From a virus, in the IMG/VR virus record IMGVR_UViG_3300033148_003950, positions 1 to 36,218 of that record: a stretch of DNA of 36,218 bases; one strand, given 5' to 3'. The notes beneath the pieces were generated by a model that worked only from the letters and a program-made list of their open reading frames with translations, searched no databases and was not told the DNA's origin. The position numbers and the translations under genes were made by a program. This document shows, piece by piece, positions 3,213 to 33,003 of this stretch (positions within the stretch are counted from its first letter, which is position 1; every line of letters begins with the position of its first letter).

Positions 3213-5555
3213 CTAACACGCAACCATCTTTATTTGCTCTTTGAAATTGGGTAGGTATTTTTTGTCAAGCACGCGGAATTTTGATGCAGCTAAAACAAGG
3301 CCAAGCAGGGCATCGTTAAGCTGACTTTCGTCCACATCAAAACTCACGACATCTCCCCGCTCTATTTTTAAAAACGACACATCCCCTATCAGGTTGATCA
3401 GCAGCCTGGGCTCATCCAGATCGTCCCTAATCCACTCCAGGATAACCGTGGCCATCGCAGATGCCCCGATATACGGAAATGACAGGGCCATCCGCAGGTG
3501 CCCATATTTTGCGATTGATGCCGCTGCCGAGGCGTCCACGATTGAACGCTCGCTATCAACGTCCTGAGAATAACCGCTCCAGTATTTATTGAACGTTGCC
3601 GTGAAGTCGTTCCGGATATCCGTGCGTAGGGTATGATCGAGCCAGACCTGGTTGAGGTCAATGCGATGGCCGGAAAGTGTCTCATCCACGGATGGCGTTG
3701 CCTCTAAATATTTCAGATGATGTACACCGGCTTCCCAGAATTGGAGAGACCGGCATTGCCTGGCGGCCTCGGCCATAAGATCGAGTACTTTGGGCGGTTC
3801 GGTTAAACATATTGTTAGCTCAAAAGAATTAGAGCTATACGCAGACCCGCTGGCATTGTAGGATGCGCTGTCAATCTCCGAATCCGACAACCCCAACATA
3901 ACCTTGAGCCAGTGTTTAAAAACATGATCCGGCCTCTCGATCAGGGCGTTCGGCGTGCCCGTATAGGTCCCTGAACCGTCATCCCTGTATCCACTTACAT
4001 CACAGGCAACCGCCGTGCCGATCACCGTGTCCGCGACGCTGTTGCCTGTCAGCGCGACCCCCGATGCAGGCCCTGAATTTATAGTAGGGGTATATTTGAA
4101 TTCAACCCATGCCTCCGCAATCTGGTTATTTAAGCTGCTTCCCACGACCTCAAGCAGGCCCATAGCAGCGTTCCATTCTTCCCATGTATCTTCTGAAGCT
4201 GCAACCTCCGCCCAACTGCTCCTGACCGTGCTGTCGTCATTAGCATCTGTGACAGACAGCTCTTCGGTTAAAAATGAAAACTTGACTGTCCCGACAATGT
4301 TTTTGCAGACTAAAACCAGTCTGAGATTCTCCGGCGGCCCGGGATGGTCCTCATATTCTCCTTTGTGGAGTCCGATCTGGTCGTTCTCGTCTAACGGGCT
4401 GCTCGTATCATAATCGCCGTCAATCACATTATTCATGTTAGTCGGGAACCCGCCCTCGTCAGACGTGTAATCAAACTTCCATGCGCCAATCGTCTGGCTG
4501 CCCGTATGCCCGTGCGAACCCTCATCAACGTCCTGGTTAGTCTCGTGCTGGATAACAGGCTTGACCGTAAATTTCAGGCACGCTTTGCCAGGATAACTTG
4601 CATGCTCATTCCCGCTCTGGCCCGTATATGCCGTGTAACCGCCTTCCTGCCTCACCCACTCGCCGTTAGGGGCCCGGATATACACCGCGTCAATCGACTT
4701 GACCGCATGGCCCATAATATAGAAATATTCGCTCTGGACCTCGAAAACCGCAGCGCCTAAATTGTGGGCCGTCGCCGTGGTAGCGTTTGCGCCTCTTGTG
4801 CATCCTGTCAGTTCATTCTCACCTTTAGCGGTATAAGTGATCTGCTCCTCATCGATCTGGATGGTCCCTGACGCCGGCAGCAACGCGAATTTGGCGGCAT
4901 CGCCTATCGTTACCGTTGTTTCGCTGGCATCCAGGTCCTCACCTATGGTTGTCAGCACACCCGCGTCCACGGCAGCGAAAGGCACACGCTTGCACTCTCC
5001 CCACACCTGGGGCAGCATCTTGCCCACGTCGTCCGGGTCTGCCCCGGAATAATCGTCCGTGGTAACAATAATATATGGCCACTTATTTACATGGCCCAGC
5101 GCGATATCGGATATCCGGAGCGATACCTGGGAGCGATCCATTTTTTCAGGGGCCTCGATCTGCCCCTTAAAAACGTCAACCTCATCATCGGGCGCCGTAG
5201 CGCCTTCATGTATCTGACTGATAAGCACGGTCGCATATGCCGCGTCATAGGCACCCAACAGTTCGGAAAACTTAGCGTGTCCGCCGATGGGCGTGTTGTT
5301 GTCAATATGAAGGGACATCTCGCCCGGCCTGGTGGCATATCTTATGGGGTCTATCTCGCCCAGGCGGATCGGGGACCACCCGTTAATGAGAGGATCATAT
5401 ACATGGCCGTCAAACGTGTTTCTCGGAAAAAAGGGCCGCGAGCACAGATACAGGGTGAGGTTAGATGGCGAGGTGAACGCTATCTCAAAGAGTAGGATAG
5501 GGGCCGGATCAGGCGAGTCTATTATTAGGGCAGTATTTGCGCTTACGCTTTTCAC
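3213..5555 (-). CDS. Tail tip/hub protein of siphovirus type
   Basis: A 780-residue protein, the largest product in the window. The N-terminal 200 residues (ILLFEIAF, YDPLINGWSPIRLGEIDP, VDVFKGQIEAPEK) resemble the hub domain of Mu-like siphophage tail proteins. Residues about 205-275 form an inserted beta domain (TIGEDLDASETTVTIGD, ending in CTRGANATTATAH) that recurs in environmental phage tail proteins. The C-terminal third (KFRVLDKKYLPNFKEQIKMVAC) is again hub-like. It overlaps the upstream gene by 4 bases (ATGA), implying translational coupling. It probably forms the tail tip that joins tube and fibre. The name of the exact family is uncertain. Confidence 0.7.
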   Translation of the reverse strand: MKSVSANTALIIDSPDPAPILLFEIAFTSPSNLTLYLCSRPFFPRNTFDGHVYDPLINGWSPIRLGEIDPIRYATRPGEMSLHIDNNTPIGGHAKFSELLGAYDAAYATVLISQIHEGATAPDDEVDVFKGQIEAPEKMDRSQVSLRISDIALGHVNKWPYIIVTTDDYSGADPDDVGKMLPQVWGECKRVPFAAVDAGVLTTIGEDLDASETTVTIGDAAKFALLPASGTIQIDEEQITYTAKGENELTGCTRGANATTATAHNLGAAVFEVQSEYFYIMGHAVKSIDAVYIRAPNGEWVRQEGGYTAYTGQSGNEHASYPGKACLKFTVKPVIQHETNQDVDEGSHGHTGSQTIGAWKFDYTSDEGGFPTNMNNVIDGDYDTSSPLDENDQIGLHKGEYEDHPGPPENLRLVLVCKNIVGTVKFSFLTEELSVTDANDDSTVRSSWAEVAASEDTWEEWNAAMGLLEVVGSSLNNQIAEAWVEFKYTPTINSGPASGVALTGNSVADTVIGTAVACDVSGYRDDGSGTYTGTPNALIERPDHVFKHWLKVMLGLSDSEIDSASYNASGSAYSSNSFELTICLTEPPKVLDLMAEAARQCRSLQFWEAGVHHLKYLEATPSVDETLSGHRIDLNQVWLDHTLRTDIRNDFTATFNKYWSGYSQDVDSERSIVDASAAASIAKYGHLRMALSFPYIGASAMATVILEWIRDDLDEPRLLINLIGDVSFLKIERGDVVSFDVDESQLNDALLGLVLAASKFRVLDKKYLPNFKEQIKMVAC

Positions 5556-6346
5556 AATATCTCCAGGAGATCCAGGTCTACATATTTCCTGTAGGGCGGA
5601 TCATACTCAATCGCAGGATCGGCCATGATCTCGGCAAACAGATAATTCCCGTTCATATCCTTGATAACCAGGCTTTTGAAACGGCCGTCAAGATCATCCA
5701 GCACGCTTTTTAACCTGGTCAGTTCCGCTGCGCTGTTCAGCCGGATATTATAAGACCAGCCCTTGCGTACATCGCCTGTCTTGATTTTTCGCACCATCCC
5801 GCCGATTGATTCGTTGCGGGAGAACTTTGACCTTTCGCGCTCCACGGGTCGCGGCTTGCTCAAGATGGTAAATTCCCGGCCCGGCCCCATGAATATTTCG
5901 TCACACATCGGGTTCACGACATTCAGGACCCTGAGCCTCCACCACTCGTGTGATGCTGCATTAGTTATGACCTTGACAATCGGGTCGTTATCGTCCTGAT
6001 ACCATTCGGCCTGTTGCGTCCAGTTCGACCCGTCATCGCTGTATTCCCAATAGCATAGATATCCGGCGAAATTGTGGCCCGCCACATACAGAAGATCAAC
6101 AGCGGACCCGACAAAACCGAACTCATCATCAAACCCGAATTCGTCATCAAATCCGAACTCATCGCTTGGCAGGTAGACCTGGAATGTATAATCGGCGGCA
6201 GCCGCCGTGACTTTCCAGAACAGAGAAACGGCCCGATCATACAACCGGGCCTCCGGGTATCCGGTATCGGGACTGCCGGTAATGGTGACTTCGCCGTTCT
6301 CAAACAGGTTGTAAGGATATAGCGTAACAACGCCCGGCATAATCAA
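5552..6346 (-). CDS. Distal tail-like protein with a triplicated DEFGFD repeat
   Basis: A 264-residue tail protein between tape measure and hub, where siphophages place the distal tail adaptor. It is beta-rich with a GREFTILSKPRPVERERSKF linker and a C-terminal domain (YNIRLNSAAELTRLKSVLDDLD). Residues about 62-78 hold an uninterrupted triplication of DEFGFD, encoded by three 18-base units around 6118-6171. The repeat is acidic and aromatic and sits between two strands. The gene overlaps the tape measure gene by 4 bases and the hub gene by 4 bases. I do not recognise a named family. Confidence 0.6.
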   Translation of the reverse strand: MIMPGVVTLYPYNLFENGEVTITGSPDTGYPEARLYDRAVSLFWKVTAAAADYTFQVYLPSDEFGFDDEFGFDDEFGFVGSAVDLLYVAGHNFAGYLCYWEYSDDGSNWTQQAEWYQDDNDPIVKVITNAASHEWWRLRVLNVVNPMCDEIFMGPGREFTILSKPRPVERERSKFSRNESIGGMVRKIKTGDVRKGWSYNIRLNSAAELTRLKSVLDDLDGRFKSLVIKDMNGNYLFAEIMADPAIEYDPPYRKYVDLDLLEIL

Positions 6347-11763: not shown

Positions 11764-12744
11764 TTAGGTTGCGTATGTATCTTTCCAGAGATACCCGCAG
11801 TCCGCAGCGACCTGTACGATATCGGTCTCTTCCGCCACTTCGTACACGTCTTGATGCTCTGCGTTTTCCCTCCAGGTACTTGTGCGTCTGGCCAGGCCGT
11901 TTTCGTATGCGATACGAACCTGCAGGCCCGCAGTGGGAGTTTTGAGCCCGATCTTTTTGGGCCTGTAGTACAAGAACCCCATGCCTTTGCCCGCGTTCAC
12001 TTCCCATATGTCGACAGCGGTAAAGTCATCACCGGCTGCCGTCTCTTCAGCAGTGCTTTTGACGGCCTTGCCTACCAGCACCTCGTCCAGCTCAAGCAGG
12101 GCGGCCAGCAGGGCGGCTCCAAACACGCCCTTCTGCGTATACTTGATCTTTTCCAGGATGTCGTCGGCCTCCTTTAGCGCCAGGTAGGTCGCGAAGTCGA
12201 TGAGCAGCCCATTGGCGATGACGCCGCATTCCTTGATCTTTTTCTTGCCTGTGGCAATGTCCGCCAAAAAGGTATTGGTATCGCCAGCAGGCGACCACAA
12301 TCCCTCAGCGTCCTCGCCGCCCGCGTTGCCGTCCGCCCAGGTGCCGGAGGTAATGAGTTCGGCTACTCGGATTTCCTTTTTCAGGTCCACCTTATCTGCG
12401 GCAAACTCGAGAGCGTCCTGGTCCGGGTTAAGCACGGGTGCTCCCTGGGACTTTGCAAAACGCCTGTCCTCGTCCGTAACCTCCTTCGCAAACGCATATT
12501 CATTTGTGGATACGGAAACCGAGGTCAGCGGATATCCGCCCCTCTTTGCCCTTGTGCCTGCGGCCCTGATCCCGGCCTCATCCCTGAACCATGCACCTTT
12601 CCGGTACTTGGTTATTTTCGCCTTGGGATCGGCCCCGTCCAAAATCGGGAAAACCCTGTCAGCGATATATTCCAGGTTGCGATATGCAACGGATACGTTC
12701 GCCAGGGGTCCCGCGATAATTTCACTTTTAACGTCCGGTTTCAT
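11764..12744 (-). CDS. Major capsid protein
   Basis: A 326-residue protein placed after the protease/scaffold and decoration genes, the usual capsid position in Mu-like siphophages. The opening (IAGPLANVSVAYRNLEYIADRVFPILDGADPKAKI) and FAFAKEVTDEDRRFAKSQGAPVLN-like region, followed by TYLALKEADDILEKIKYTQKGVFG, are typical of HK97-fold coat proteins of this group. The end (EVAEETDIVQVAADCGYLWKDTYAT) is the terminal beta strand region. ATG 12744 is preceded by GGGAGGATATTACA. It would be the most abundant product of the late operon. Confidence 0.8.
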   Translation of the reverse strand: MKPDVKSEIIAGPLANVSVAYRNLEYIADRVFPILDGADPKAKITKYRKGAWFRDEAGIRAAGTRAKRGGYPLTSVSVSTNEYAFAKEVTDEDRRFAKSQGAPVLNPDQDALEFAADKVDLKKEIRVAELITSGTWADGNAGGEDAEGLWSPAGDTNTFLADIATGKKKIKECGVIANGLLIDFATYLALKEADDILEKIKYTQKGVFGAALLAALLELDEVLVGKAVKSTAEETAAGDDFTAVDIWEVNAGKGMGFLYYRPKKIGLKTPTAGLQVRIAYENGLARRTSTWRENAEHQDVYEVAEETDIVQVAADCGYLWKDTYAT

Positions 12745-13649: not shown

Positions 13650-14252
13650 TTAACCCTTCGTCATTTCCTGCTGGTATTCCGTTGCCAGGTCAGGATGCTC
13701 CTTCTGAACCTCCGAGAACGCCGCCGTATAGTCGAGATCCTTATTCTCCGCCATCTTTTTCCTGGTCATCTTCTCCAGCTTTTGTGCGGCATCTCCGGTC
13801 TGAACGTCATCGTCCCTTGTCGCGATCTCCTTGAACTCCACCAGTTTAGGCAGATCCTCCATGAAGCCCTTGAACCAATCCAGCCGAGAAGTCTTTTTGC
13901 CTTCGGAGAATTCCATGACTTCCTCGCCGTCCAGGCTTTCCATGAACTCCTTGATCCCCATATCGATCCATCGCGGAACCACCTTCTTTTTCTCAGGATC
14001 GCAAAACTCGGAGATCTCCTTTTCCCGCGCGTCTTTGCGTTTCTTCTGCTCTTTTTCAGCGTACTCAGCGTCTACCTCTCTCTTGGCCTCGGCCTTGGCT
14101 TCGGTCCTGGCCTTCTCCAGATCCGCTTCAGTAAAGCCGTCCGGTGATGTTCCTTCCGGCGCACTGTCCGGCAGGGCATCATCCGGCACCTTGCTCATGT
14201 CCACGCCCATGAAGCCCAGAAAGTTTTTGAGTTTCTCTTTAAAATTGCTCAT
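13650..14252 (-). CDS. Nested scaffold protein from internal start
   Basis: ATG 14252 is in frame within the protease/scaffold gene and is preceded by AGGAGGAGAAAAAA, a near-perfect Shine-Dalgarno with normal spacing. It would yield a 200-residue protein beginning MSNFKEKLKNFLGFMGVDMS and consisting of the scaffold part only. Mu produces its scaffold Z from inside gene I in the same way. The Glu/Lys-rich middle (KARTEAKAEAKREVDAEYAEKEQKK) is coiled-coil-like. Confidence 0.75.
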   Translation of the reverse strand: MSNFKEKLKNFLGFMGVDMSKVPDDALPDSAPEGTSPDGFTEADLEKARTEAKAEAKREVDAEYAEKEQKKRKDAREKEISEFCDPEKKKVVPRWIDMGIKEFMESLDGEEVMEFSEGKKTSRLDWFKGFMEDLPKLVEFKEIATRDDDVQTGDAAQKLEKMTRKKMAENKDLDYTAAFSEVQKEHPDLATEYQQEMTKG

Positions 14253-14909
14253 TTTTTTCTCCTCCTGTGTTGTGGCTGGTTTCCTGTCATCAATACCGTC
14301 TTTAACGGCACTGAACGCCGGAACGTCGCCGGTTATTGTTTCTTTCTTATTGGCCTCCTCCCGTATATATTCCACATCCCAATCCGGGATGATTGCATCC
14401 GCCTGGTCCTTTCCCTCTTTCTCGATCAGCCAGTCTCGCAGCCTCCTGAAAATGCCGCCTATAACGCTCAAGCCCTCATCTGAAAAATCAAACGTTATGG
14501 CCTCTTCGCTATCTTCAAATTTGAGATCGGCTAATCCTTTTACAGCCGGAGGCGCAGCGCCTAAAAACCCCACATGTCTGAGCCTGCCGTCCGGGTAGAA
14601 ACTGGCAGAGCGCTTTTTGTAGCGGCCCTGCTTTACCATCTCCTCAAACTCGGGAACCACTTGTTTAGCCCTGGCTAAAAGGACCTTTACGCCGTCTTTA
14701 ACGGTCGTTTTTAGGGCCTCGACCCAGCCGAAAGAAGGGGCGTTTTCTTTGGGGTGTCCCACTACAAGCGGCGGTTCATGCTCTGCCGCATCAAACGTTG
14801 CGACCGCCTTATCTATGATCTCGTCGCCTTCGTGTTCCCGGCCTGCGCTGTCCACCTGTTTCCCGCCCCTGAAAATTTCAATCCAGCCATCAAAACCTTT
14901 GAATTTCAT
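13650..14909 (-). CDS. Head maturation protease and scaffold (Mu gpI-like)
   Basis: A 419-residue protein. The N-terminal ~130 residues are the phage-I protease type: GWIEIFRGGKQVDSAG, then ATFDAAEHEPPLVVGHPKENAPSFGWVEAL, where the GHP motif carries the likely catalytic His, and KKRSASFYPDG with the likely catalytic Ser. The C-terminal half is a charged, coiled-coil scaffold (about 220-419) ending DLATEYQQEMTKG. An internal start with its own strong ribosome site allows the scaffold to be made alone. It lies between the gpG-like and decoration genes, as expected. Confidence 0.85.
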   Translation of the reverse strand: MKFKGFDGWIEIFRGGKQVDSAGREHEGDEIIDKAVATFDAAEHEPPLVVGHPKENAPSFGWVEALKTTVKDGVKVLLARAKQVVPEFEEMVKQGRYKKRSASFYPDGRLRHVGFLGAAPPAVKGLADLKFEDSEEAITFDFSDEGLSVIGGIFRRLRDWLIEKEGKDQADAIIPDWDVEYIREEANKKETITGDVPAFSAVKDGIDDRKPATTQEEKKMSNFKEKLKNFLGFMGVDMSKVPDDALPDSAPEGTSPDGFTEADLEKARTEAKAEAKREVDAEYAEKEQKKRKDAREKEISEFCDPEKKKVVPRWIDMGIKEFMESLDGEEVMEFSEGKKTSRLDWFKGFMEDLPKLVEFKEIATRDDDVQTGDAAQKLEKMTRKKMAENKDLDYTAAFSEVQKEHPDLATEYQQEMTKG

Positions 14910-14925
14910 AACGTCCTCCCATGTC

Positions 14926-15381
14926 CTAAGTCTTCGCGTAGATAATAAAATCGTTAAGCGCGGCCTTCATTTCCTCCCAGTCCTCATCCTGGATCATCAT
15001 GTATGGCCTGGCCGGGATCTTTACCTTGCGGCCCCGTCCCGCCATGCCGCCTAAATGATGTATGGCCGCGTAGACTTTTTTTGCAGACAACACGACCTTG
15101 TCTTTAAACGCCTTGTAATTAACCGCGCCCATAAGACCGCCCGCGAAACCCTGGTTTACCAGGATTTTGCTGCCCTTTTTCCTTTTGAGTGTTTCCGGAG
15201 ACAGCTTTTTCCACTTATCCGGCCTGCCACCCTTCTCGAAGTTGCGCACGATGGACGTCCTGCCGATCTCGCCCATGATTTTCATTGCTGGCTTCGGATC
15301 TCCCATGCGTTTCAAGATACCGCCCAGGTACTTTTTCGCGTCCCGATCATCATATTTTACGCTGACTGCTATCCCGCCCAT
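14926..15381 (-). CDS. Virion morphogenesis protein (gpG/Phage_tail_S-like)
   Basis: A 151-residue basic protein with the conserved pattern VRNFEKGGRPDKWKKLSPETLKRKKGSKIL, then an 'L-x-x-Q/G' turn and IHHLGGMAGRGRKVKIPARPYMMIQDEDWEEM. This is the family of Mu gpG/P2 S-like morphogenesis proteins, in which 'IPARP(F/Y)' near the C-terminus is a hallmark. It follows the gpF homologue and precedes the protease gene. It acts in joining head and tail or in head completion. ATG 15381 overlaps no other gene. Confidence 0.85.
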   Translation of the reverse strand: MGGIAVSVKYDDRDAKKYLGGILKRMGDPKPAMKIMGEIGRTSIVRNFEKGGRPDKWKKLSPETLKRKKGSKILVNQGFAGGLMGAVNYKAFKDKVVLSAKKVYAAIHHLGGMAGRGRKVKIPARPYMMIQDEDWEEMKAALNDFIIYAKT

Positions 15382-15416: not shown

Positions 15417-15444
15417 CTGTGAGCTGTGAGCTGTCAGCTATGAG
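15417..15444. repeat. Heptamer-period array (CTGTGAG)
   Basis: Four units: CTGTGAG, CTGTGAG, CTGTCAG, CTATGAG. The array overlaps the end of the gpF homologue and supplies its final Ser codon and the TAG stop. Confidence 0.85.
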
Positions 15445-16157
15445 CTTCTTTTAAATCCTTCCCTGCCCACATGGTAATCCCAGCCCGGATCAATGCCTTT
15501 CGGTATTTTGTGGATCTCGCCCGTGGCCTTATCCACCCACTCATAGCGTTCAATCTTTGGCGCCCTGGTTTTAATACGATGCGGCCCGTCCGCTTCCTCT
15601 TTTTTCAGTCTTTCCACCTCACGGGCGGATGCGCTCACCACGCCTCACTTTCAACCCCAGCCGTTTGGCGGGTAATGCGTATTCCAAAAGGGATCATCCG
15701 CCGGAAGCACCAGGTTGTACCATTGCATGTGCTCCTCTCTGGGGTTTGCCGAACTGGAGCCGACATACCGTAGAAAGGGTCTGACCTTTAATACGACAGG
15801 GTCTACCATTTGGGTGTAATGCCCGACCGCATAGGCTGTGCTCAGGTTGGTATTGAGAATTACAGCCGTTCTCCATGCCTTGCCGCCCTTGTATTGCCAA
15901 CCGTAGCGCTGAACAGTCTTATCGAAATCCTTACGGAACTCCGCTAACGTGGTTCCCTCTGAAAGCGCCTTGTCCACGGCGGCCCGCAGATCCTCTAAAA
16001 GCTCTGTTTTCATGGCCCCTGCCACGGAAAATGCACGGGCATGCATGGCTTTCCAGAGGTCCTTCCAGGTCTTTGTGGGCATGTTGATCTTTCGCCGGAA
16101 ATAATCAATCGCCTCCTGAAACGGAAGGCTCATATATTCAGCGCTCGGTGTCGTCAT
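15438..16157 (-). CDS. Minor head protein, Mu gpF-like, with in-frame UGA-x-UGA replacing Cys-x-Cys: candidate selenoprotein
   Basis: Read through two UGA codons this frame is 239 residues. Residues 30-168 show the gpF/head morphogenesis domain: TAVILNTNLSTAYAVGHYTQM, then REEHMQWYNLVLPADDPFW and HYPPNGWG. In this family the next residues are Cys-x-Cys. Here they are UGA (169), AAG, UGA (171), after which the frame continues VVSASAREVERLKK to a normal C-terminus with KGIDPGWDYHVGRE. Each UGA is one third-base change from a Cys codon (TGC or TGT). Hairpins resembling bSECIS follow. Neighbours are portal (upstream) and gpG-like (downstream). Selenocysteine insertion is the favoured reading; a double nonsense mutation is the alternative. 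The start has no clear ribosome site; ATG 16133 is possible. Confidence 0.75.
15613..15653 (-). promoter_or_regulatory. Candidate bSECIS-like hairpins after the two UGA codons
   Basis: After UGA-AAG-UGA the RNA can fold in two exclusive ways. Form A: GGCG, a bulged U, GGUG, loop AGCG, CAUC, CGCC (15644-15624), 8 bp with a 5' bulged U; its loop begins 16 bases after the first UGA. Form B: UCCGCC, loop CGUGA, GGUGGA (15629-15613); its loop begins 28 bases after the first UGA and 22 after the second. Both loops have G in the first two positions, as bacterial SECIS loops do. Folding was done by eye. Confidence 0.5.
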
Positions 16158-16180
16158 TGTCTGGTATAACCATTATTTAG

Positions 16181-16224
16181 AGCGGCAAAGCCGCGTTTCA
16201 TAAAATCTGCGCAGCAGATTTTAT
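16181..16224. repeat. Twin-hairpin interspersed repeat, copy 2
   Basis: Same architecture as 8709-8754: GCGGC-AAA-GCCGC (16182-16194), then ATAAAATCTGC (16200-16210) with GCAGATTTTAT (16214-16224), 11 bp. It overlaps the TAA stop of the portal gene (16221-16223), exactly as copy 1 overlaps the tail tube stop. Compensatory base changes between copies keep the second stem paired. Confidence 0.85.
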
Positions 16225-17744
16225 ACATCGAACCTCCCTGCCAGCTCAGCTACTGTCAGGGCTCGTTGCATCAGATCACCTAATGCCGATTCGTCCATAT
16301 CGCTGTAGAGATCCAGCAGCCCGTCCCGGAATTCCTCCAGAGTGGAAGCCGAACCCAGGAGCTTCTCCACAGGGGCCATCAAATCGCCAAAATCGGCCTG
16401 TGTGAGCGTTTTGTCTCCCAGGGCGTCCAAAGTTACGCCAGGGGACTCGTCCTCGCCACGTGCGCCTGGTTTGGCGTTTTCCTCGTCGAATTCTGCCCCT
16501 CCTCCGCCTTGATCGAATGGCTTTCCGGTGGCGGTCACAACCACCTCTTCGTTTTCTTCCGGCTCCGGAATCGCATACGTCTCATAAAAATAACGTTTTC
16601 CGATCGGGAGCCCGATTTCCGCCGCCAGGACCTTGTCTCTTTCCGCCAATGGTCTGAGATCTTTCTCCGCTTCAGTCCGTGTTTGAAGCTTGGGGTAGGC
16701 GGTTACGCCTGTGAAGTTGAAATCCACGATCCATCTGACAATAGAGCCGTTAAGACACTCGTCAAGCAATCCTGCATCGGCCACAAGGATATCCTGTTTC
16801 GTCTCTTCCTGGGCCTCTTCCTTTCCTAACTTACCGGGCGTTCCCTCAGTAGAGGCCGTCTGCCCCAACACGGCCTTGCTGATCTGCTTATCCATGTATT
16901 CACACAGGCTCGCATAGGTCACCTTTCCGCCTCTTGTGGCCTCCAGGAGCTCGATTTCCATTGAGTCAGGGATTTTAACGCCGGTTTCGTTCTGTAACGC
17001 ATCAATAGCATCCAACAGGGCCTGTTGCTGTTTCGGTTCCGTGCCCGGTTCATATTTTCCGACTGCCGTGGGCATGCCGTATTTCTCTAAAAAAATCAGC
17101 CAGAACTTGATGCCGTTTTTCTTGAACCATACCGGCCACCAGAGCTTCTGTCCTAACCCCTTGCCATATGGGTTATCACTCGATCCGTAAGTAAAACGGA
17201 TGAATTTGCGGTCCGGCACCGGCTCCCCGTCAATCATGTTTTGAGGCGTCAATAGCCGCAGCTCGCGGTCCATCGTGAAGGAGAAACGTCTCGGGTGCTT
17301 GGCGCGTATTCTCTGCGGGACAATACTTCCGTCTCTGATTTCCCAGAGCACCTCACCCACATAAAAACCATACAAAACCGCCTGCAGCAGCTCCTGCCTG
17401 GCCTGATCGAAATTTGTATTTAAAAGTGTTTGTTTTACGAAGTCCGCGATCTTCTGCGCCCGTGTCACTGTGGCGGGCCTGCCTTTTGCGCTTGACTCCT
17501 CACCCGGTAGCACCCCCCATTCCTTGCTTATTACGCTGAGATACCTTGTTTGGAGCACAGCGCCTGCATGCGGGTCCCGATCCACCTCGTCATAGAGCTT
17601 CAGGCCCTTACCCTGGGACTCCGTCCGGAGCGTAGGATCAGGGTTTTCCAGCCGGTTCAGCCAGCCGGAAAAAATATCCAGGTCCTTGGATGCGGTTGCG
17701 ACTTCGTCCTTAATGGGCTGCTTTGTTTTCTCGTCTTCAGCCAT
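16221..17744 (-). CDS. Portal protein (DUF935, Mu gp29-like)
   Basis: A 507-residue portal. Recognisable segments: DIFSGWLNRLENPDPTLR near the start, YDEVDRDPHAGAVLQTRYLSVI, ELLQAVLYGFYVGEVLW, FTYGSSDNPYGKGLGQKLWWPVWFKKNG, FLEKYGMPTAVGKYEPG and VLGQTASTEGTPGKLGK. These are hallmarks of the DUF935 portal family of Mu-like phages. The portal ring forms the DNA entry vertex and docks the terminase. ATG 17744 follows AAGGATCTCAAT; the frame is open 60 bases further upstream through a heptamer array but without a good start. The C-terminal ~110 residues are acidic and helical. Confidence 0.92.
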   Translation of the reverse strand: MAEDEKTKQPIKDEVATASKDLDIFSGWLNRLENPDPTLRTESQGKGLKLYDEVDRDPHAGAVLQTRYLSVISKEWGVLPGEESSAKGRPATVTRAQKIADFVKQTLLNTNFDQARQELLQAVLYGFYVGEVLWEIRDGSIVPQRIRAKHPRRFSFTMDRELRLLTPQNMIDGEPVPDRKFIRFTYGSSDNPYGKGLGQKLWWPVWFKKNGIKFWLIFLEKYGMPTAVGKYEPGTEPKQQQALLDAIDALQNETGVKIPDSMEIELLEATRGGKVTYASLCEYMDKQISKAVLGQTASTEGTPGKLGKEEAQEETKQDILVADAGLLDECLNGSIVRWIVDFNFTGVTAYPKLQTRTEAEKDLRPLAERDKVLAAEIGLPIGKRYFYETYAIPEPEENEEVVVTATGKPFDQGGGGAEFDEENAKPGARGEDESPGVTLDALGDKTLTQADFGDLMAPVEKLLGSASTLEEFRDGLLDLYSDMDESALGDLMQRALTVAELAGRFDV

Positions 17745-17780
17745 ATTGAGATCCTTCTGATTGATTTGCTTTCTGTCTTT

Positions 17781-17815
17781 CAATCGGCAATCGGCAATCG
17801 GCAATCGACAATCCC
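17781..17815. repeat. Heptamer-period array (CAATCGG)
   Basis: Three CAATCGG units, then CAATCGA and CAATCCC: five units with a 7-base period between the terminase large subunit stop and the portal start. It is the longest and cleanest such array in the window. Confidence 0.9.
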
Positions 17816-27903: not shown

Positions 27904-28695
27904 CACCAGGGTATAATCCTTCATCACTATCCCCTTTTGGTTTTGACCTCTCACGTGTGCGTCCCACCAATACAGCCCGTCAAATTTACCGAATAAAGGT
28001 TTTTCCTTTGTGAATTCTTTGAAATGCCCTCGGCATAAATGCAATCTGTTATGGTTCCCGTTTGCGGTCGTGCTTGCCCCGGATTTTCCTGGTACTTTAA
28101 TTTTTAGGACATGATAATCGAAGATCTCGGTAAGCCCTTTCAGGCCGCGTTTTTTATTGAGCTTGGTCGGTGCTGTTAATTTTTCTGTCTCAATGTTTTT
28201 GCAATTCAATAAAATAAGAAAGACCCAGGCATCTAAAAACATATAGTAAGCATCGTTAATTATTTGATGCCCCAACTGGTCTGGCATTGCCGAGCTCATG
28301 GAATTTAAAAGGTAGGCTTTTGGCTCTACAATGTTTTCTTCAACCTTCCAATATACACCGCCAAGCCACTGATGGGCTTCCTGTGTTTTAGCAAACGAAA
28401 AAATCCAACAGACATTTTCAATCTGTTGCATTAAAAACCCCGCCTTAACTGGCCTGCCTGTTTCTTCACCCTGGCGCCGGTAATCAAACCAGCAGACCTT
28501 GTAAGGTAATTTGGCATATACTTTGGCAAGTGGTTTTATTTCGTGTGCGCTGCTCTGAGATAATGGTAATGGTTCAATGTCTCCCATGTGAAATTTTTGT
28601 GATAAATTAATATTCTTTAGAAAAAAATCTCCCGCGTCATCACCATAAATTACTTTATATTTTAATATGTCTTCTATCACCTGATGCGCATACAT
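27892..28695 (-). CDS. Unknown phage protein with C-terminal RGHF...YWW..HVRG motif
   Basis: A 267-residue protein starting MYAHQVIEDILKYKVIYGDD; ATG 28695 follows GAGAGGGCTTAAA. The N-terminal two-thirds are mixed helix/strand. The C-terminal ~55 residues hold HNRLHLCRGHFKEF, KPLFGKFDGLYWWDAHVRG and IVMKDY. I have seen this RGHF/YWW/HVRG pattern at the ends of hypothetical phage proteins but cannot name a family. The gene sits between two copies of a duplicated Cys-rich gene, so it may have been inserted or exchanged. The longer frame to 28770 overlaps the upstream gene and is not favoured. Confidence 0.65.
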   Translation of the reverse strand: MYAHQVIEDILKYKVIYGDDAGDFFLKNINLSQKFHMGDIEPLPLSQSSAHEIKPLAKVYAKLPYKVCWFDYRRQGEETGRPVKAGFLMQQIENVCWIFSFAKTQEAHQWLGGVYWKVEENIVEPKAYLLNSMSSAMPDQLGHQIINDAYYMFLDAWVFLILLNCKNIETEKLTAPTKLNKKRGLKGLTEIFDYHVLKIKVPGKSGASTTANGNHNRLHLCRGHFKEFTKEKPLFGKFDGLYWWDAHVRGQNQKGIVMKDYTLVASA

Positions 28696-28696
28696 T

Positions 28697-28906
28697 TTAA
28701 GCCCTCTCGAACTGCTTACATGCCGGATGAAAAAAGCTAAACATATGCAGGTAATGATTTGACTTGTCATTGCGGCAAATGCCGATGCTTAACCTTTTTA
28801 GTGGCAATGGTCGGTCCATCACCCATCCCGAAAAGCTGTCGCAGTGCCCACATATATCCTCAATCTCCTTATCAACTCCCCGTTCCATATATTTCAGGCA
28901 TGTCAT
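28697..28906 (-). CDS. Small Cys-rich protein, copy 1 of a duplicated pair
   Basis: A 69-residue protein, MTCLKYMERGVDKEIEDICGHCDSF, later IGICRNDKSNHYLHMFSFFHPACKQFERA. It keeps the same Cys spacing as its paralogue at 27701-27895 (CxxC, C, PACKQF). The start is an ATGA overlap with the upstream gene, in the same 43-base context as the paralogue. The middle differs strongly while both ends are conserved. It is probably a small zinc-binding protein. Confidence 0.75.
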   Translation of the reverse strand: MTCLKYMERGVDKEIEDICGHCDSFSGWVMDRPLPLKRLSIGICRNDKSNHYLHMFSFFHPACKQFERA

Positions 28907-28914
28907 GCGCTCGC
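28872..28914. repeat. 43-bp exact direct repeat, copy 1
   Basis: Identical to 27861-27903, about 1.0 kb apart. It brings the same upstream stop context ('ASA' codons then ATGA) and start of the Cys-rich gene. Confidence 0.9.
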
Positions 28915-29313
28915 AGCCTCTCTATCCGCCATAGCCTTGGCGGCGGCGGACGCAACTTCCATCTCCTCTAATATCCGGCGTCTCTTTCTGGTCCGCGCCC
29001 ACATCTCCCGGACATGCCTCGGACAGCTCCCATGTGAATTCGGCACAGTTGACCAGTTCACGACCGTGCGGATACCCTCCCTCTCGCACCCCGCACACAG
29101 CACAGGAAACAATTCCTCTTTATTTTCGATCTCGTTCATCCTGTCGATCCCGCCTGTCCGCCGTTTTTCTGGCGGATCTAATTCTTTTAAAAACCCTGAG
29201 ACAATTTTGGCAGCGCCTATCCCCTGAAACAAAGATAACTCGTTGCCATATCGGAGGAGGGCGCCTGCCACAAAGAGGCCGCTCGCCCCCCCCCCCCCGC
29301 TAACAAATGGCAT
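28903..29313 (-). CDS. Zinc-motif protein with poly-G tract near its start
   Basis: A 136-residue frame. Residues about 70-105 have the zinc-type motif LFPVLCAGCEREGIRTVVNW, then NSHGSCPRHVREMW. This resembles the 'CxxC...SHGxCPxC' tail of many delta-proteobacterial sensor proteins, with His in place of the last Cys. The C-terminal MADREAASA is encoded by a palindromic repeat. The first 57 residues follow a 13-G tract (29286-29298) and include VSGGGGASGLFVAGALL. The true start may be ATG 29142, although ATG 29313 has the better ribosome site (AAAGGA). Confidence 0.55.
   Translation of the reverse strand: MPFVSGGGGASGLFVAGALLRYGNELSLFQGIGAAKIVSGFLKELDPPEKRRTGGIDRMNEIENKEELFPVLCAGCEREGIRTVVNWSTVPNSHGSCPRHVREMWARTRKRRRILEEMEVASAAAKAMADREAASA
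28925..28950. repeat. Palindromic repeat at a gene end
   Basis: TCCGCC (28925-28930) with GGCGGA (28945-28950), and the CCATAG core shared with 10282 and 27025. Translated as AKAMADREA. A further TCCGCC/GGCGGA pair is at 29157-29176, 230 bases upstream. Confidence 0.7.
29286..29298. repeat. 13-base C homopolymer (G on the coding strand)
   Basis: Thirteen Cs in a row, five codons after ATG 29313 of a minus-strand frame. Only lengths of 10, 13, 16 and so on keep the frame open into the zinc-motif protein. Confidence 0.9.
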
Positions 29314-29363
29314 TTAAGACCGATCCTTTCCTGTACGTCTTCCATTAGCCTGACTTTTGTCTC

Positions 29364-30011
29364 CTACTTCTTATTGTTTTCGGAGAGCGCCTCTTCAATT
29401 ATATCCACCATGCCCTGCATATATCCCGATGCCCATCTCAGGCTCTCCCTGGTACCCACAACTTCTCTGGCCACACGGAAAGCCAATGCCTTGACTCTGG
29501 CAACGGCCTCATCTAATTCCGATGTTTTTGCCCGCCTTCGCATAGCAGGCCATTCATCATTCAACCGCTCTTCAACGCCTAAATAGGCTGCGGCCTTACT
29601 GTTTTTTGGTCCGGTTCGCGTATAACCAACCCGTTCCAGGTATCCGCTTTTAAGAAGAAAAGAAATATACCGTTTTGCCCAATCCAGGCTGCACCCCGAC
29701 AGTTCCGAAAGTATGCGGGCCGTGAATGCTTCGTGCCGCCTTGTACGGATACGGACAATCCTGACCATTCGTTTTTGGGCCTGGCTGTAATCAAGATCCC
29801 TGGGACCGCGAACGAATTTATATGTGGCCGGGCTGGTGCGCTTTATATAGCCCGCCCGAACAAGATCCTGCGTAGCATGTGAGATCCGCGCATAACCTTT
29901 GGAACCCGGCAGGCCCAATGCCTCCTGAAGGCCCCTAATGGTTATCTCTCCCGCCGCCTTGATAGCTTCGAAGGTCCGCGCTTGAGTGCTGCCCTCCTGT
30001 TGCCTTCTCAT
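29364..30011 (-). CDS. Winged-helix DNA-binding protein next to MuB
   Basis: A 215-residue protein with two likely winged-helix units: residues about 10-70 (RTFEAIKAAGEITIRGLQEALGL, ISHATQDLVRAGYIKR) and 80-145 (RMVRIVRIRTRRHEAFTARILSELSG, WAKRYISFLLKSGYLERVG). The C-terminal part (EAVARVKALAFRVAREVVG) is helical. It starts in overlap with the MuB-like gene (ATGA, 30008-30011). In many Mu-like phages a winged-helix protein follows B. It may regulate early genes or assist transposition. Confidence 0.75.
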   Translation of the reverse strand: MRRQQEGSTQARTFEAIKAAGEITIRGLQEALGLPGSKGYARISHATQDLVRAGYIKRTSPATYKFVRGPRDLDYSQAQKRMVRIVRIRTRRHEAFTARILSELSGCSLDWAKRYISFLLKSGYLERVGYTRTGPKNSKAAAYLGVEERLNDEWPAMRRRAKTSELDEAVARVKALAFRVAREVVGTRESLRWASGYMQGMVDIIEEALSENNKK

Positions 30012-30787
30012 ACGGCTTTTCTCCCTGCTATACGAAGCCGTTTTACGTCAGTACTCCTGAACCGATCAGAGATGTCTTTTTTGGTTGCCATCTTTTTTAG
30101 GAGCGCCTCTACCATAAGCTGCGATATCTCGCGCGTCTTATTAACGGCGCACGCCTTTTCGAGCTCCAGGAGATATCCGACAACATAACGAAAATCCCCC
30201 TCCGTAAAACGGCATATGATTTCCGCAGCTTCGGGCGCAATCTCCAGATCGCACCATTCCTTGGTGATGAGGCTCATCTCCGGAGGCAGGAGAGGCTTGA
30301 ATTCAACGATACCCGCGGGCAGGATTCTGCTCCAGAATTGACCAAACTTCCCGAGCTTGCCGCAGATCTCCTCCATGCCCACAAGAATGATTGGAACCCT
30401 TGTCGTGTCGTGGATATCCCGCAGCACATCCAGCATCATGCTGTGTTTGAATACATAATCGGCCTCGTCAATAAACAAAGGTTCGCCTCGCCGCCGTATC
30501 TCCTTACAAACCTGCTTAAAGCAATCAACAGTGCGATATTCCGGGTAGATCTTGTACTCCTCACAGATCCCGTCCCTGAGCAGATCCCTGACCCTCCAGG
30601 TCCGCATTACGCGCACATAGTAGATGTTCGACTCGCCATAATAATGTTCAATGGCCTCGGTTTTCCCCAGGCCCCACCTGCCATAAATCAAGCCCAGGCC
30701 GGGCAGGCTTGGATCTCGGTTTTTCAAGGCATCAATGGCCTTGACCAGGACGTGGTAATTATTGGTCGGGAAAAATGTCTTTTTCAT
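30008..30787 (-). CDS. Transposition ATPase, MuB-like
   Basis: A 259-residue AAA+ ATPase. Walker A is IYGRWGLGKTEA (Gly36-Thr43), Walker B LFIDEAD (Asp107-Glu108), with VPIILVGMEE as the sensor-1 region and a C-terminal helical lid (EAAEIICRFTEGDFRYVVGYLLELEKA). This matches MuB/ExeA-type target-selection ATPases, here without the N-terminal HTH domain of Mu B. MuB binds target DNA and delivers it to the transposase. The gene overlaps the transposase gene by four bases (30784-30787). Confidence 0.93.
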   Translation of the reverse strand: MKKTFFPTNNYHVLVKAIDALKNRDPSLPGLGLIYGRWGLGKTEAIEHYYGESNIYYVRVMRTWRVRDLLRDGICEEYKIYPEYRTVDCFKQVCKEIRRRGEPLFIDEADYVFKHSMMLDVLRDIHDTTRVPIILVGMEEICGKLGKFGQFWSRILPAGIVEFKPLLPPEMSLITKEWCDLEIAPEAAEIICRFTEGDFRYVVGYLLELEKACAVNKTREISQLMVEALLKKMATKKDISDRFRSTDVKRLRIAGRKAV

Positions 30788-33003
30788 ACAGCCTCCTTTG
30801 CGAATTGGTGTTTCATATACCTCAGCTCGGCCTCATATAGCTGCCGCATATTCCTGTATTCATCGGTCTGCTCGTATTCGTCCCGCCACTCCCGGTCTGT
30901 CCCGGAGAGCGTCTCTCCGGACGCCTCTTTACGGAGGATCAACCGGTACCGTTCCTCTTCGGTCATAGGAATCGGATCATGGGAAACAGCCGGTGCTTTT
31001 CCTGCCTCTTGCTGCCGCTCCTCTCCCCCTGTTGTCAGCGCCAACAATGCCTCGGCCTCCTGATAGCCCAGCTCCGGAGGCCCTGCCTTGGCGATGTGCT
31101 CTATTGCCTCTTTGTTTAACCGCCTCTGATAAGCCTGGAGTTTGATCTTTTCCTGCATGACAGGGTCATCAGGCCGGATTTGGGATGTCCGGCGAAGCGG
31201 TCTTCCCATACACATAAAAACCCCGTCAACGTATACGCGGACCGTTTTGTAGTCCGGGTCGTACAGGATCGTTGCGTAATGATTGATAGTTTTATTGAGG
31301 ATCGCCGCGCCGGACAGGTCCGGCGGGACGTCTAATTCGAACTTCTCGCCTAAAAGGTTGAAGCCCCAATTATGGATTTTTACTTGCTCTTTTTTGAGTA
31401 GGGCGAATGCCAGCATTTCGGGATCAACTAACTCGGGGACACCGAATGCTAAGAAAGCCTGGTCAGGAGACCGGCCCTCCATGCCGTGCCCGGTGTGTGG
31501 CGATTTGTGATAGCAATTGACCACCCACTGGTAAAAACGTTCGCAGAATTCCGGGTAGCTCAATAAAAGCCCGCGTTTTATCTCCCAGGTGAGTTTTTCC
31601 GGCCGCTGCTCGTGACCGGAACCGCACCATCCGGGCTGCTGCCTGGAAAACTGCTGAACTACGTTTCGAAATGCCCGCTCAATAGGCTTTGACCAGGGGT
31701 GATACGCAATCGCATATCGCTGGTGTATGTTAAGCCGGGCGTAAACCCCGCCAACGCGGATGCTTCTCACGGTCAGGTTTTGCCTGCCTCGCTTTTTTAC
31801 CCATGCCTTCTCGTGAGGGTCGTATGTAAGGTCAATATAAAAGGGATCAATCCCCAGGGCCGCAAAACGCTCTATAATCTCCGGATAGTCGATCTGTCCG
31901 ATCTTGATTTCCTCACCATTTAGGTATTTGCTGCGGTAGTCCTTACCGTTGTCGATGTATACGGATGAGGGTACGCCGTGCTGCGGAAAGTTTTTATCTT
32001 CCTTCCTGGCTATGCCGTGGGCCAGGGCCAGGGCGATGGTGCGCGAGTTTGGCGCAAACGATATACACCAACCCATGAAAGACCGGCTGGCCATATCCAT
32101 CCAGGCCGTAAGCCAGGGCCGCAGCACCTTGCCGCCAGGGGCCTTCACAAACACATCGAATATATGATGGTCCCCGCACCACATGAAGTTTGGCCAGATC
32201 TCTCTGTAATCCCGGAGGATCTTCAACTCGCAGTCGGCCTGGTAGCGTTTAGCCCCCTTGCGTGCCAGGGTCTTGAGGTTTGCGTCCATTTCTTTATTGA
32301 TGCTGCGCTTCAGGGTGTCGTAAGATCCTAACTTCCAACCCTGAATTAAGCCTTCGTTGACTGTATTTTGATATACATCGGAAAGATTGAGGTGGGCCTG
32401 CGAAGCATAAAGCTTCTTTGCATAATCAATCGCCTCGCGCGAAAACACATGGCACGCCCCCAGGTTGTTTCCATAGTCCGGTGTGAGCGCCAGGATTTGC
32501 GCCATAATGGCATCCCTGCCTTCCGATTGAGCATCTTTCAGCGCCTTGTCTGCATCCTTTAGGTATTTATATAAGGAGGGTAGACTCACGCCCTGGGATT
32601 GGGCATATCGTTTAAGGGCCTTTGTTTTGGTCTTTTTGTTACGAGCTTTGATGGATCTGGCTTTGTTGACCAGGCCAAGGCGCTTTCGCGCCTCCTCCCG
32701 GCAGGATTCCGGACGGGCTTGCCATTCTTGCAAGGCGAGATCGGATGAAAAAAGGGTAATGTCCGTGGTTTTTTCACCCGATTGCTCCTTATTATATATA
32801 GCAGGTAATACATCCTCGGCCTGTGATGACATTATCGCCGCCCTCACATCCTCGGGAAGCTTCGCCACAACGAACCGCTTCGCTCGGTTCTTGCCGTTCT
32901 CGTGTAGCCACTTCTCCTTTTTTGCTCTTATTTGGATGCTTCTTATATTTAACCCTTTTACCTCTGCTATTTCCGCTATGGTCGCAAGCACATCCGGTCC
33001 CAT
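30784..33003 (-). CDS. DDE transposase, MuA-like
   Basis: A 739-residue transposase that integrates and replicates the phage. The N-terminal DNA-binding part is visible (IAEIAEVKGLNIRSIQIRAK, then a second helical region to about 220). The RNase H-like core carries the DDE triad: WCGDHHIFDVF (Asp278, or Asp283), VYIDNGKDYRS (Asp351) and SKPIERAFRNV (Glu442). After it come the beta-barrel domain (FELDVPPDLSGAAILNK, TVRVYVDGVFMCMG) and a C-terminal helical tail that in Mu contacts MuB. It overlaps the MuB-like gene. The repeats at both window ends are its likely binding sites. Confidence 0.95.
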   Translation of the reverse strand: MGPDVLATIAEIAEVKGLNIRSIQIRAKKEKWLHENGKNRAKRFVVAKLPEDVRAAIMSSQAEDVLPAIYNKEQSGEKTTDITLFSSDLALQEWQARPESCREEARKRLGLVNKARSIKARNKKTKTKALKRYAQSQGVSLPSLYKYLKDADKALKDAQSEGRDAIMAQILALTPDYGNNLGACHVFSREAIDYAKKLYASQAHLNLSDVYQNTVNEGLIQGWKLGSYDTLKRSINKEMDANLKTLARKGAKRYQADCELKILRDYREIWPNFMWCGDHHIFDVFVKAPGGKVLRPWLTAWMDMASRSFMGWCISFAPNSRTIALALAHGIARKEDKNFPQHGVPSSVYIDNGKDYRSKYLNGEEIKIGQIDYPEIIERFAALGIDPFYIDLTYDPHEKAWVKKRGRQNLTVRSIRVGGVYARLNIHQRYAIAYHPWSKPIERAFRNVVQQFSRQQPGWCGSGHEQRPEKLTWEIKRGLLLSYPEFCERFYQWVVNCYHKSPHTGHGMEGRSPDQAFLAFGVPELVDPEMLAFALLKKEQVKIHNWGFNLLGEKFELDVPPDLSGAAILNKTINHYATILYDPDYKTVRVYVDGVFMCMGRPLRRTSQIRPDDPVMQEKIKLQAYQRRLNKEAIEHIAKAGPPELGYQEAEALLALTTGGEERQQEAGKAPAVSHDPIPMTEEERYRLILRKEASGETLSGTDREWRDEYEQTDEYRNMRQLYEAELRYMKHQFAKEAV

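Follow-up and report, generated by a model that had tools for sequence, protein, structure and literature searches.

Can a structural protein of a bacterial virus contain selenocysteine (Sec)? The question is raised by a gene for a gpF-type minor head protein in a 36,218-base IMG/VR virus record, the whole of which is called the window below. Selenoproteins catalogued so far are cellular and mostly redox enzymes, and the accepted viral selenoprotein, the glutathione peroxidase of an animal poxvirus, is an enzyme and not a head protein. An initial annotation of the window, made from the sequence alone, described a single frame from position 16157 to 15438 that is broken only by two UGA codons, lies without obvious decay beyond them, and carries them after PPNGWG, where the gpF family has Cys-x-Cys (C-x-C). 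On this basis it proposed a candidate selenoprotein with a Sec-x-Sec motif.

The gpF gene and its genomic context

When TGA is written as U, the minus-strand frame gives 239 residues, ends in TAG and contains exactly two TGA codons, in the context PPNGWG-U-K-U-GVV, so re-translation returned the two codons originally pointed out (Table 1). The read-through protein matches PF04233 (Phage_Mu_F) with an E-value of 6e-13 (49.9 bits, against a curated cut-off of 29.6) and PHROG 220, "minor head protein and DNA pilot", with an E-value of 1e-86. In the alignment, Cys-type relatives have TGC or TGT in both UGA columns, which places the two codons at the C-x-C of the family as described. An in-frame UGA that is aligned with Cys inside a conserved frame, one of the criteria for bacterial selenoproteins, is therefore present. 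Furthermore, a second contig (L079/L001), which is 99.98% identical to the window over 6123 bases, keeps both TGAs and differs inside gpF by one base, a synonymous change. The gene is thus confirmed as an intact member of the Mu gpF / Phage_Mu_F minor head protein family with TGA in both Cys-x-Cys positions. As had also been noted initially, UGA is still a normal stop in this phage: it ends 17 of 43 minus-strand genes, chosen by hand.

The gene is part of a minus-strand late cluster of the Mu-like type that consists of portal, gpF, virion morphogenesis protein, head protease, scaffold and major head protein genes; the late-gene context next to the portal is that expected of Phage_Mu_F / gpF. 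Besides the MuA-type transposase, an AAA/TniB-like ATPase is encoded in the window. The gap between the portal and gpF genes (16158-16220) contains two small inverted repeats (AAATCTGCTGCGCAGATTT and GCGGCTTTGCCGC), and no clear ribosome-binding site was seen in this gap ahead of the ATG at 16157. Elsewhere in the window, a tail-region protein (5552-6346) contains a short in-frame repeat (FGFDDEFGFDDEFGF).

Table 1. Features of the window discussed in the text
Feature	Position	Strand	Remark
Major head protein	11764..12744	-	
Head maturation protease	13650..14909	-	
Phage_tail_S / virion morphogenesis (neck) protein	14926..15381	-	directly downstream of gpF
gpF-type minor head protein gene	15438..16157	-	239 residues when read through; 168 if the first UGA terminates
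Predicted bSECIS hairpin, UCCGCC-CGUGA-GGUGGA	15613..15629	-	6 bp, 5-nt loop, G in second place
UGA codon, residue 171	15645..15647	-	Cys-x-Cys position 2 of the gpF family
UGA codon, residue 169	15651..15653	-	Cys-x-Cys position 1 of the gpF family
His161 codon	15675..15677	-	His in 30/31 UGA forms and 102/140 Cys forms (132/171)
His143 codon	15729..15731	-	invariant with CxC in 171/171 aligned homologues; possible metal or redox partner
Mu-type portal protein	16221..17804	-	directly upstream of gpF
MuA-type transposase	30784..33003	-	marks a Mu-like transposable phage

UGA and cysteine forms among gpF relatives

Relatives were retrieved using six peptide patterns, none of which spans the CxC motif, and 73 loci were obtained. 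In the aligned parts of these loci, in-frame stops consist of TGA in the two Cys columns only, in five loci. Of these five, L001, from the population of the window itself, has U-K-U, and L007-L010 (65% identity) have C-K-U. The remaining closest loci among the 73, L002-L006 (73-83%), have C-K-C. By this distribution, deeply diverged relatives share UGA, which shifts between the two Cys columns.

In IMG/VR DNA, 16 contigs match PPNGWG-(C/U)-x-UGA, and each of them carries an in-frame gpF gene. With UGA placed at the first Cys instead, the scan retrieved 31 contigs: 22 new gpF genes of the U-x-C form, the two known U-x-U genes, and seven chance matches outside gpF. Two control scans of the same database returned no gpF gene, namely one with TAA or TAG in place of the second Cys (one unrelated match) and one with the neighbouring Trp replaced by TGA (two unrelated matches). 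In view of these controls and of the ordinary UGA stops of the window, a reassignment of the genetic code was rejected.

In total, TGA-form gpF genes were found on 39 IMG/VR contigs, including the window, and on two contigs of bacterial metagenome-assembled genomes (MAGs). They encode 31 distinct proteins, of which 21 are U-x-C, eight C-x-U and two U-x-U, and none has another stop. The proposed check for UGA in either Cys column of other gpF homologues thus gave a positive answer, and UGA homologues in other genomes, a further criterion for bacterial selenoproteins, do exist. Note that U-x-C is the commonest UGA form and that the U-x-U form of the window is rare, while C-x-C gpF is commoner than the UGA forms (at least 120 contigs in IMG/VR). 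UGA occurs both in short gpF proteins of about 235 residues, like that of the window, and in long ones of about 400 residues, which have an additional C-terminal part (observed among L090-L118).

UGA-form gpF is rare in sequenced cellular genomes. A scan with the C-x-U pattern found none in 395 genomes of the phylum of the Desulfobacteraceae MAG, one of the two MAGs above, and among 389 genomes of its class a TGA-bearing gpF occurs in the seed genome only; of the 13 pattern matches in genomes, 11 lay outside gpF and arose by chance. In INPHARED, three tblastn queries each found 282-311 records with gpF relatives, all below 60% identity.

Several other matches were noted. The TAG-bearing prophage gpF of a Nitrospirota genome (L176, genome G785) was rejected as ordinary decay, the TAG lying early in a gene whose CRC motif is intact. 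Four near-identical sequences outside gpF (L092, L095, L097 and L099) match the U-first pattern by chance (PPNGWYUDU / PPNGWCUDU) and represent some other widespread conserved element. An int-alpA RNA (RF02996) lies at 2234-2304 of L086, downstream of a C-x-U gpF gene. When the rest of these phages was scanned for additional Sec/Cys pairs, antisense-frame matches swamped the output.

State changes and selection

A maximum-likelihood tree of 85 proteins was calculated after masking of the UGA positions; it requires a minimum of 13 switches between Cys and UGA in the first column and of seven in the second. The window pairs with L082, a C-x-U protein of 83% identity (96% SH-aLRT), beside C-x-C proteins. 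The initial annotation had named, as a sign against a selenoprotein, a pattern in which all close relatives have Cys and the window copy alone carries both UGAs together with other damage; with a C-x-U protein as the nearest relative, this pattern is absent.

After the UGA, Nei-Gojobori dN/dS lies between 0.07 and 0.23 in most UGA-UGA pairs that allow its calculation (for example, 0.08 for the window and L082, 0.10 for L110 and L111, and 0.07 for L108 and L117), and values before the UGA are of the same order. An exception is the pair L101 and L114, with 1.06 in a fast C-terminal tail. Judged from these substitution patterns, the C-terminal part past the UGA is under purifying selection, in agreement with the initial impression of no obvious decay there.

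A bSECIS-type hairpin after the UGA codons

The bSECIS search that had been suggested was based on a published model quoted in PMC13188914, which asks for a loop of 3-9 nt, a stem of at least 4 bp, a G in one of the first two loop positions, a distance of 16-37 nt from the UGA and an energy of -7.5 kcal/mol or lower. A hairpin that satisfies this model was found in the window, with an energy of -7.7 kcal/mol and a loop G 28 nt after the first UGA and 22 nt after the second. Because of this spacing, one hairpin could serve both UGAs. Taken alone, the window hairpin is weak (p 0.14 against synonymous recodings), and the support is comparative.

With the geometry of the model imposed, the best hairpin has a median energy of -7.9 kcal/mol among 30 UGA genes and of 0 among 54 Cys homologues (Mann-Whitney p 7e-14), and the median z-score against synonymous recodings that keep the protein is -2.2 in UGA genes versus +0.28 in Cys homologues (p 3e-12), where the p-values ignore shared ancestry and are to be read as strong, not exact. 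When the Cys controls are matched for PPNGWG, a hairpin of -7.5 kcal/mol or lower is present in 25 of 32 UGA sequences, or 25 of 30 without L131 and L134, which are chance matches outside gpF, versus 25 of 145 Cys sequences. One UGA member, L116, has no good bSECIS by the criteria used.

The hairpin also covaries among relatives. In the 15 members with a CGUGA or CGGGA loop, all six pairs are kept, that is, all 90 pair cells hold standard pairs, versus 31-49% paired in controls with a slid alignment. Two-sided changes occur in three of the six pairs, a number that none of 500 shuffles reached. In L115 and L127, both codons affected by the two-sided change keep their amino acid (Ser TCC/TCG/TCT and Val GTG/GTC/GTA); protein conservation therefore does not account for it. 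No SECIS family and no tRNA-Sec family of Rfam was matched in the window and 12 related loci.

A hairpin resembling a bSECIS was also seen downstream of a C-x-C gpF gene (L163) in genome G177, from the class of the Desulfobacteraceae MAG; it has 8 bp, a GUC loop, a distance of 20 nt and an energy of -9.3 kcal/mol, and is possibly a fossil of a reversion from Sec to Cys.

Host genomes and selenocysteine machinery

In GTDB-species genomes, the U-x-C form was found on two contigs, one in the Desulfobacteraceae MAG (L127) and one in a Nitrospirae MAG (L133), so the cellular sample consists of two genomes, both MAGs. The search for selA, selB, selC and selD that the initial annotation had called for was positive in both: selA, selB, selD and tRNA-Sec score above the curated cut-offs. 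In each MAG, selD contains one in-frame TGA, a sign that UGA is read as Sec there.

In the Nitrospirae MAG, a single contig of 72,419 bases (G002:C85; L183, L184) carries selB (28636-30519) and, about 18 kb away, the U-x-C gpF of a Mu-like prophage (48475-49274). Transposition-type genes of the prophage lie near 33.6 kb and gpF at 48.5 kb, and the flanks on both sides contain host-type genes, whose names were assigned by visual inspection of the N-termini. At 34.5 kb, the Desulfobacteraceae contig appears to be phage alone, with a gene order like that of the window, and its link to a host therefore rests on binning.

Judging from the likeness to L127 (74% for gpF), the host of the window is probably a Sec-using bacterium of the sulphate-reducing type. 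A search of the window returned no tRNA gene, and no tRNA-Sec was found in the 12 related loci. No Sec gene was found in the window phage itself.

Reading of the UGA codons

The exchange of Cys and UGA in two columns, the covarying hairpin, the purifying selection and the Sec machinery in both MAGs support the Sec-x-Sec candidate, and both UGAs of gpF very probably encode Sec. The host SelB would bind the bSECIS hairpin inside the reading frame just past the UGAs and, guided by this one hairpin, would deliver Sec-tRNA(Sec) to one or two UGAs, so that selenium would be inserted at these codons. The full-length protein would then join the head near the portal, as its counterparts do in Mu and SPP1.

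Among the other readings, the one that survives best, although we regard it as very improbable, is a programmed stop with partial read-through, in which most of the product is a gpF of 168 residues and the long form has a minor or regulatory part. Sec decoding in bacteria is known to compete with termination, and the short product retains the N-terminal two thirds of gpF. However, forms with Cys and no stop are commoner in the family, which indicates that the full-length protein is the functional one, and UGA, which moves from one Cys column to the other, was in no case seen at the Trp beside them.

Decoding of the UGAs as Cys, by a tRNA-Cys with a UCA anticodon or an unusual route without SelA, would restore the family motif as well, since the columns are Cys in relatives. 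This reading has slightly less in its favour still: the same phage ends ordinary genes with UGA, the covarying SelB-type hairpin is specific to UGA forms, both host genomes have complete Sec machinery including a selD with in-frame TGA, and, as mentioned above, no tRNA gene was found in the window and no tRNA-Sec in the 12 related loci. Finally, two stops two codons apart would normally suggest a pseudogene or a sequencing error, but 41 contigs with UGA in exactly two columns, the selection past the UGA, the near-identical second assembly and the intact late-gene cluster around gpF make this explanation hardly credible.

Possible role of the motif

Arg140, His143, Trp158 and PPNGW-CxC are essentially invariant in gpF homologues, although the CxC motif was itself part of the pattern by which the 171 homologues were selected. 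In L079 and L083, the core contains no Cys and, with UGA read as Sec, two Sec only. An AlphaFold model of gpF is of moderate quality (pLDDT 69.7), and a Foldseek search using it gave no significant match to a solved structure; the family profile, searched against PDB sequences, hit only a repeat protein by chance.

As our less certain best guess, the CxC, UxC or UxU motif and the invariant His143 may form a redox-active thiol/selenol pair or a metal site. In anaerobic hosts that use Sec, it might lock or switch gpF while the head is assembled or DNA is delivered; Sec might keep the site reactive and repairable there, and Cys might be slower or become over-oxidised. If gpF is a selenoprotein, a mainly structural metal site made of CxC and His143, perhaps with His161, in which Sec is an unusual ligand, is a serious but less favoured possibility. 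The conservation of His143 and both Cys (CxC being in the selection pattern), and of His161 in most homologues, agrees with it, and a His/His/Cys/Cys set would suit zinc. On the other hand, Sec has been gained repeatedly in each of the two columns, which suggests a reactive chalcogen, and structural zinc sites are not known to prefer Sec. As a matter of judgement only, we favour a redox pair, in the form of a selenenylsulfide or diselenide.

Considered as a whole, gpF is likely to be a structural virion selenoprotein and the first selenoprotein family to be recognised in bacterial viruses, with repeated exchange of Sec and Cys at either or both positions, up to U-x-U in a Cys-free core, and with head assembly dependent on the selenium status of the host. 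If so, some phages need host selenium and SelB to complete a head protein, and the Sec trait of the host would limit phage host range and burst. In addition, C-x-C, U-x-C, C-x-U and U-x-U at one site constitute a rare natural series on what Sec adds over Cys. UGA-form gpF genes are probably misannotated, because standard gene callers would truncate them at the UGA.

Comparison with known systems

A 2026 review of prokaryotic selenoproteins lists 119 families and subfamilies (PMC13188914), and its text does not mention a phage or viral protein, capsid, morphogenesis or UxU. None of the selenoprotein models in NCBIfam of June 2026 matches gpF. The full-text literature that was searched yielded claims of phage tRNA-Sec only and no phage selenoprotein; some recent papers on selenoprotein families lie outside its coverage, and this absence is not proof of novelty. 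With this scope, gpF is to our knowledge a new selenoprotein family and the first in a phage structural protein.

A link between phages and selenocysteine has been claimed for Basilisk-like and huge wastewater phages, in which tRNA-Sec genes are reported (PMC6145125, PMC10747093). The passages concerned describe tRNA genes and name no phage selenoprotein; the present case is the reverse, with a candidate selenoprotein and no phage tRNA-Sec found. Closer parallels are the bacterial U-x-C and C-x-U selenoproteins, such as thioredoxin-like Sec.1/Sec.2 and the SO_0444 Cu/Zn efflux transporter (PMC13188914), which likewise have UGA at a Cys of a C-x-C-type motif, a downstream bSECIS, Cys homologues and Sec-using hosts. 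However, these are cellular proteins, whereas gpF is, judging from its genes, a phage structural protein, and its forms include U-x-U.

The nearest known system is the Mu gpF (gp30) / SPP1 gp7 family itself (PF04233, TIGR01641, PHROG 220), which has the same conserved C-x-C and the same gene position, between the portal and the protease and major head genes. Mu gp30 and SPP1 gp7 are structural parts of the head (PMC5512222), and by analogy with them gpF would be a virion selenoprotein located in the head near the portal. The known members of the family have Cys in both positions, whereas in the genes described here one or both are UGA, accompanied by a bSECIS hairpin.
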